Of a stretch of DNA of 64,000 nucleotides, positions 711 to 54,941 are shown in pieces; position 1 is the stretch's first letter; every line of letters starts with the position of its first letter. Both the position numbers and the translations under genes were made by a program. A model generated the notes under the pieces. The model had not been told where the DNA came from. It saw only the letters and a program-made list of their open reading frames with translations, and ran no database searches. The stretch is from Patescibacteria group bacterium. Its GTDB lineage: Bacteria; Patescibacteriota; Patescibacteriia; Patescibacteriales; Patescibacteriaceae. The stretch covers positions 72,037 through 136,036 of the forward strand of contig JAQWEL010000003.1 of NCBI GenBank assembly GCA_028704945.1. Direction: 5' to 3'.

Positions 711-817
711 GTTTTAGAATATTTATAATAATATATCGGCAACTATTTTCGTGTCATATCTAAAGATGCGGACACGAAAATTTTAATGCCTCTCTATTAT
801 TATAAATATTCTAAAAC
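711..817. repeat. Nested inverted-repeat element, copy A
   Basis: A perfect 23-bp outer inverted repeat (711-733 with 795-817) encloses a second perfect 11-bp inverted repeat (745-755 with 771-781). The left spacer is 734-744, the right spacer 782-794 and the central loop 756-770. The fold is a hairpin on top of a hairpin. There is no T-run, no ORF and no transposase. A second copy with the same layout but different stem sequences lies at 10510-10609. Function unknown. Confidence 0.75.
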
Positions 818-10509: not shown

Positions 10510-10609
10510 AATAATGATTATAGTATAGGGATTCGTTCAAATTATCCCGCAGAACTGAAGTCCTGCGGGATAATTCAATCCACTCTATCCCTATACTATA
10601 GTCATTATT
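10510..10609. repeat. Nested inverted-repeat element, copy B
   Basis: The outer inverted repeat has 22-bp arms (10510-10531 with 10588-10609, one mismatch that would be a G-T pair). It encloses a perfect 12-bp inner repeat, ATTATCCCGCAG (10541-10552) with CTGCGGGATAAT (10563-10574). The left spacer has 9 nt, the loop 10 nt and the right spacer 13 nt, the same layout as 711-817. The right spacers resemble each other (AATGCCTCTC in A, AATCCACTCT in B) while all stems differ. It lies between tgt and the alaS promoter. Confidence 0.75.
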
Positions 10610-41101: not shown

Positions 41102-41143
41102 TAAATAAAGCTTTAAACACAGTAAGATTAAGTTGATTTTTAT

Positions 41144-41181
41144 ATCTTGTGTCGCATAAGTTATATTGTGCGACACAAGAT
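41144..41181. repeat. Long perfect inverted repeat without T-run
   Basis: ATCTTGTGTCGCA (41144-41156) pairs with TGCGACACAAGAT (41169-41181); four more pairs (one G-U) extend the stem and leave a 6-nt loop. No T-tract follows on either strand, so it does not look like an ordinary terminator. Confidence 0.6.
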
Positions 41182-41249
41182 AATAAAGCCAAATAATTTA
41201 GTCTTTTTACAAAGTTATTAATATTCTCCACATATATTTACACTAATTT

Positions 41250-46518: not shown

Positions 46519-46558
46519 GTCAAAAAAATAGCTTGTTTTAGCAAGCTATTTTTTTGAC
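46519..46558. terminator. Bidirectional terminator
   Basis: Perfect 17-bp inverted repeat (46519-46535 with 46542-46558) with core ATAGCTTG/CAAGCTAT and A7/T7 runs. It follows the minus-strand gene ending at 46577. Confidence 0.85.
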
Positions 46559-54899: not shown

Positions 54900-54941
54900 A
54901 GTAACATAAAACAGGGCCTAAACACCCTGTTTTATGTTACT
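54900..54941 (+). terminator. Terminator-like hairpin of the efflux operon
   Basis: Perfect 17-bp arms (54900-54916 and 54925-54941; core ACAGGG/CCCTGT) with an 8-nt loop. The T-run behind it is weak (CTGTTTTG). It overlaps the last codons of the minus-strand cysteine-rich ORF. Confidence 0.65.

Follow-up and report, generated by a model that had tools for sequence, protein, structure and literature searches.

The two nested hairpins in the window (the whole 64-kb stretch of DNA that was analysed) are members of a single superfamily of intergenic palindromic repeats, with at least 26 copies of three types, A, B and C, in the host genome. The copies share a conserved core, their outer arms carry base changes that mostly come in pairs, the distal parts of these arms are specific to each locus, and the palindrome is absent from corresponding sites in a sister species. 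Our preferred explanation, which we judge to be about equally balanced between right and wrong, is that the family consists of non-autonomous intergenic repeats of a REP/MITE-like kind, restricted to this species, in which template switching rewrites the arms.

Both hairpins lie where the first-pass annotation had placed them (Table 1). Copy A (711-817) pairs at 23/23 bp in its outer stem and 11/11 bp in its inner stem, and copy B (10510-10609) repeats the same nested order with a 23-bp outer stem containing one mismatch and a perfect inner stem of 13 bp (10540-10552 with 10563-10575). A further element absent from that annotation is a 4-bp middle stem in copy A, formed between the two spacers by GGCA and TGCC. 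The folding energies of A and B over both strands correspond to z scores of -9.5 to -11.7, and none of 200 shuffles folded as well. Likewise, no comparable arm pair (18 bp, at most one mismatch, interval of 45 to 75 nt) appeared in 60 first-order Markov versions of the 64-kb window. A chance origin of the two copies is ruled out by these shuffles and simulations.

Table 1. Coordinates of the parts of copies A and B in the window.
Feature	Position	Strand	Description
Copy A outer stem, left arm	711..733	+	23 bp; perfect pairing with 795-817
Copy A left spacer TATCGGCAACT	734..744	+	GGCA (738-741) pairs with 787-790
Copy A inner hairpin	745..781	+	11-bp stem 745-755/771-781 plus short apical stem; conserved among A-type copies
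Copy A right spacer TTTAATGCCTCTC	782..794	+	
Copy A outer stem, right arm	795..817	+	
Copy B outer stem, left arm	10510..10532	+	23 bp; pairs with 10587-10609, save for a single T.G mismatch
Copy B left spacer TCGTTCAA	10533..10540	+	family consensus TCGYTCAA
Copy B inner hairpin	10541..10574	+	34 nt; conserved across the family
Copy B right spacer TCAATCCACTCT	10575..10586	+	family consensus YAATCCRCTC; its R pairs with the left-spacer Y
Copy B outer stem, right arm	10587..10609	+	

From these two copies the first-pass annotation had proposed a family with changing stems around conserved single-stranded parts, and covariance-model searches bore this out by turning up further copies (14 B, 8 A and 4 C). 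The host genome is 984 kb long and 97.6% complete, and stretches amounting to about 451 kb, window included, were taken for direct examination. Relatives of both A and B can be found by within-genome BLAST. Covariance models were made for each type separately, since MAFFT misaligned the stems when given the two copies alone. The model built from B-type copies found 14 in the host genome. The A-type model found the 8 A copies and one C-type core, and a tenth place overlaps another C copy; a structure scan added one further C-type copy, and the C-type model recovered 4 C copies while also picking up A copies. Care must be taken with this last result, which is weak alone, as an unrelated long hairpin in G005 scores at a similar level. 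The link between A and C depends more on the match of the A model to L053 (E 7e-9; the 39 other genomes gave no match) and on the visible resemblance between the L051 and L054 cores. Fragments of the A type are also present at L009 and L014. Near-identical recent copies were not found, except for L035/L036 and a set of A copies linked to pilin genes. The similarity between A and B spacers pointed out in the first-pass annotation was marginal when copies A and B were compared by themselves (p about 0.02-0.03) and stood once all copies were included, the match then being far above that of column-permuted spacers (0/400 permutations). A similarity between C and B spacers was not supported in the column-permutation test.

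Members of one type have conserved spacers and a conserved inner hairpin; in B, where this holds for 14 copies, the outer stems range from similar to unrelated. In the family as a whole, the outer stems are about 17-28 bp long and differ between most copies, with arms that match within each copy. The earlier claim that every set of stem base pairs differs between A and B holds for the outer stems, residual outer-stem homology having been tested within types only. The middle stem covaries in both types: in B, the Y of TCGYTCAA changes with the R of CCRCTC, and in A, GGCA/TGCC alternates with ACCA/TGGT. When eight B copies were aligned, pairing held in 96.6% of the stem cells, and changes on both sides were counted in 46 cells, versus 0-4 in a control in which the 3' partner was slid by 1-3 columns. 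Minimum spanning trees were used to count the paired changes, giving 14 transversions and 11 transitions for the inner stem and 40 transversions and 13 transitions for the outer stem, where register shifts may inflate the counts; among C-type outer stems, the paired changes are transitions only (7). Mismatches in the outer stems of all copies comprise 9 G.U and 12 A.C on the plus strand, so the excess of wobble pairs that RNA selection should leave is seen on neither strand. An exception is the inner hairpin of B, which shows a wobble-like, strand-specific bias (11 A.C vs 3 G.U on the plus strand), and the B core folds more stably on the minus strand in 13 of 14 copies, a bias that A does not share. 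It is possible that the B core has a strand-specific role.

How much of the outer arm is inherited depends on the distance from the core. B left arms resemble one another more than shuffled arms do (0.466 vs 0.357, 0/1000), and among nine of the more distinct B copies arm similarity falls from 0.56 at 1-7 bp from the core to 0.49 at 8-14 bp and to chance at 15-20 bp. The proximal part is therefore inherited with the core, which rules out for that part the idea that the whole outer stem is an inverted duplication derived from the target. The clearest case is L049, whose core is 0.90-0.97 identical to those of L006, L008, L011 and L012 and whose proximal 7 bp are identical to theirs, whereas its distal arms are at chance (0.42-0.55, null mean 0.53), all of these arms being palindromic. 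Compared with one another, the other four copies have cores that are 0.90-0.97 identical and distal arms that are 0.85-0.92 identical. The comparison with L049 marks the distal arms as locus-specific, and gradual paired drift at one rate would not give both patterns. A smaller difference can be seen between the near-twins L035 and L036, whose left arms are distinguished by an AG that matches the right arm in L035.

The paired changes, the many transversions among them and the lack of a G-U excess in the outer stems suggest arm-to-arm DNA copying over stepwise RNA compensation. Template switching is known to yield paired multi-base changes: microbes provide documented cases, and RNA genes inferred ones (PMC8794818). 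Because it can pair changes in one step (PMC8794818), kept pairing is not by itself proof of selection on structure, as the first-pass annotation had taken it to be. In the mechanism we favour as the most economical one, the inherited unit would be a core of about 54-61 bp, consisting of two asymmetric spacers, a 2-4 bp middle stem and the inner hairpin, together with a short proximal outer stem. The remaining outer stem, to a total of roughly 17-28 bp, would be largely locus-specific. The palindrome may extrude as a hairpin in replication, and template switching between its arms could then make them match, lengthen them outward and alter both sides of a pair in one event. Conservation of the spacers falls outside the template-switching account and would imply recognition by something, for spread or for a host role; the most fitting reading of the spacers is as the part recognised by a putative trans-acting protein that spreads or uses the element. 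We infer template switching as the cause, mobility and the recognising protein alike, spread being deduced from the dispersed copies and from their absence in the sister species.

Every one of the 26 copies is intergenic, and the copies are dispersed. Where neighbouring genes are codirectional, the orientation of the element follows the direction of transcription in 14 of 18 pairs (14 to 4; two-sided p about 0.03, by hand), which, together with the minus-strand stability of the B core, hints at a strand-specific role. At least three copies (L042, L044 and L011) lie between divergent genes, and gene 3' ends are not clearly preferred (by hand count, the upstream stop is the nearer one for about 10 of 16 codirectional copies). 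The homology of the copies frequently stops close to the ends of the stem, the C type being the clearest case, whereas the four pilin-linked A copies have longer flanks in common. A check for target-site duplications, proposed in the first-pass annotation, gave flanking direct repeats barely above chance (12/300 shuffles) at inconsistent distances, and no consistent duplication was found around the copies.

Other repeats and hairpins were also noticed. After copy A, at 830-890 of the window, there is a repeat, GTCATTCCGAACG..GAGGAATCGCT, with other copies in the genome, several of which adjoin pilin genes or copies of the A type. Upstream of paralogous type IV pilin genes (MKFKDQKGFTLIELLVVIVIIG...) at L008, L012, L015 and L018 there are A-type copies, fragments or the associated repeat, an arrangement that suggests that pilin cassettes were duplicated whole, upstream repeats included. 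The window also holds simple, near-perfect intergenic hairpins of 16-19 bp at 896-932, 41138-41187, 46519-46558 and 54900-54941. They are of a type common in the host genome, which has many simple perfect hairpins of 15-29 bp, and are probably long or bidirectional terminators.

The family appears to be restricted to its host. Related genomes, where the first-pass annotation had advised searching for further copies, yielded none with the B model (60 relatives, under stricter filters) or with the A model (39 genomes). Exact core patterns had no match in about 85,000 species genomes or viral contigs, collections in which the source genome itself may not be included. BLAST found no match for B in phages or for A in plasmids. 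Models R1 and R2 had no match in other genomes, and the matches of model R3 there proved on inspection to be unrelated long hairpins or weak matches. The nearest genome, that of a sister species (G001), has roughly 70-73% identity in gene DNA. At six syntenic sites with conserved neighbours (L035, L042, L043, L044, L049 and L051) it lacks the palindrome, G001 being too distant for a base-level reading of the empty sites. In G001, a gap of only about 6 bp separates the two genes at L049. Some of the six sites have a clearly shorter intergenic stretch in G001, though L044 and L051 do not. Insertion at these sites is likely, though not proven at each.

At a seventh syntenic site, G001 has a different palindrome, a repeat of its own. 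This 28-bp repeat, TAGTTCAGTATACTAGTATACTGAACTA, occurs in four copies in 265 kb (L081:14490; L085:2032, 2923 and 18064); its flanks are unpaired in three copies, and one copy has a 9-bp locus-specific paired extension. Palindromes of another kind, GTAGAGAC..CCGCCGA, are found in G008, a genome of the same taxonomic family as the host (L096:136 and L098:1870), and resemble GTAG-tagged REPs. A bolder form of our explanation, which we regard as rather unlikely, is that the elements represent a novel class of small mobile palindromes: each copy would inherit only its centre and a few proximal bp, and would gain its distal arms anew where it lands, through copying of flanking DNA in inverted orientation, thereby building matching ends of its own. 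Such per-site writing of arms may be general in the clade, as the paired extension in G001 would illustrate.

Candidate enzymes were sought in the same 97.6% complete genome. The Y1 (RAYT) transposase, PF01797, was not found there, with control genomes positive in 10 of 14 cases, and the IS110-type Transposase_20 (PF02371) is also absent from the genome. There is one tyrosine recombinase, an Xer-like protein of 307 aa, and no integron integrase. Given these results, the standard REP and attC explanations fail. Two reverse transcriptases were considered as the trans-acting enzyme and rejected, there being no link between them and the elements. One, of 527 aa (L132:1174-2757, C7), matches the Drt2 anti-phage defence model (E 4e-130). 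The other is a broken fragment in L133 (C11 near 33 kb, the window's contig) and adjoins a protein with, by eye, a DGR-like variable region.

The first-pass annotation had offered three readings, namely a mobile palindromic element, a structured RNA and an attC-like site. The first fits best, given the wholly intergenic placement (26/26), homology that in many cases ends near the stem ends and sister sites without the element. A structured RNA element, such as a 3'-end protector, a processing site or a protein-binding hairpin, with stems under ordinary compensatory selection, drew only weak support, and we consider it unlikely. It would account for the strong covariation surrounding conserved spacers, for an orientation that tracks transcription and for the wobble bias and better minus-strand fold of the B inner hairpin, but the strand favoured by this bias is antisense to the usual gene direction. 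The outer stems have no G.U excess on either strand, transversional pair changes are many, some copies sit between divergent genes and relatives lack the element. Rfam gave no match at the gathering threshold for the window, or at E up to 1 for four elements, which also counts against a structured RNA.

The locus-specific distal arms and the abundance of simple perfect hairpins could alternatively mean that a mobile core inserted itself into the apex of long, terminator-like hairpins already present in the host, to which the outer stem would then belong. This is quite unlikely, because the core is inherited together with the 7-14 bp of outer stem next to it, the A-run/T-run and G+C-rich apex seen in simple hairpins are usually missing from the outer stems, and the distant genome G001 has no hairpin at the six syntenic sites. 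Size, dispersal and intergenic placement would all suit a conventional REP/REPIN or MITE whose transposase was lost or is missing from the assembly, with old arms that drifted by mutation and gene conversion, and an enzyme could be missed at this level of completeness. We consider this very unlikely in view of the missing Y1 and IS110 transposases, the step-like arm replacement at L049 and the ends, which are least conserved here and most conserved in REP and MITE (PMC3116915). Scattered integron attC-like sites would share imperfect nested hairpins with conserved unpaired parts, yet have next to no chance of being correct and are already nearly refuted: the sole tyrosine recombinase is Xer-like, the copies are dispersed without cassette arrays and have core genes such as tgt and alaS among their flanking genes, and RYYYAAC/GTTRRRY (R/L) boxes are absent from the conserved columns.

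Paired base changes are normally read as proof of selection on RNA structure. The present family suggests arm-to-arm copying at the DNA level as a way for long stems to remain paired and even to be replaced. If true, the family would offer a natural replicated system, with one core and many arms, in which to measure template-switch evolution, and would call for caution when covariation is used to discover RNAs in AT-rich genomes. It is also an example of dispersed repeats in a reduced genome where no REP-type or IS110-type transposase was found that would explain its spread.

Among known systems, the family is filed with the dispersed bacterial palindromic repeats, and not as a member of REP/REPIN or MITE, since it has no tag, no Y1 gene that could be found and no conserved ends. 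Like REPINs and the GTAG/CGTC-tagged REPs associated with RAYTs (PMC3116915, PMC3733652), it consists of short, dispersed, non-autonomous intergenic hairpins with several types per genome, and compensatory stem changes are likewise seen in REPINs (PMC3116915). However, REPINs have conserved ends and a free centre, while the present copies conserve the centre and leave the ends free. The unpaired GTAG or CGTC tag at one end that defines REPs and REPINs (PMC3733652) is not shared at the ends of the 26 copies. MITEs and other small bacterial mobile repeats are similar in being about 100 bp long, non-coding and dispersed, with terminal inverted repeats, but those of MITEs are conserved between copies, whereas the distal arms here are at chance similarity, and no consistent target-site duplication was found. 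The repetitive hairpin and double-hairpin elements of mitochondria (PMC2800124) are also small, scattered and intergenic, in an AT-rich genome and with an unknown mobiliser; in the sponge mitochondrial repeats the stems are conserved and the loops vary (PMC2800124), whereas here the stems vary and the spacers are conserved. Template-switch mutation at quasi-palindromes (PMC8794818) resembles what we propose in that a single event, the copying of one arm onto the other, yields perfect stems and multi-base changes that are paired. It has been described as a mutation process in RNA genes and at single loci (PMC8794818), whereas our proposal would have it work throughout a dispersed family of repeats and lengthen the arms outward.
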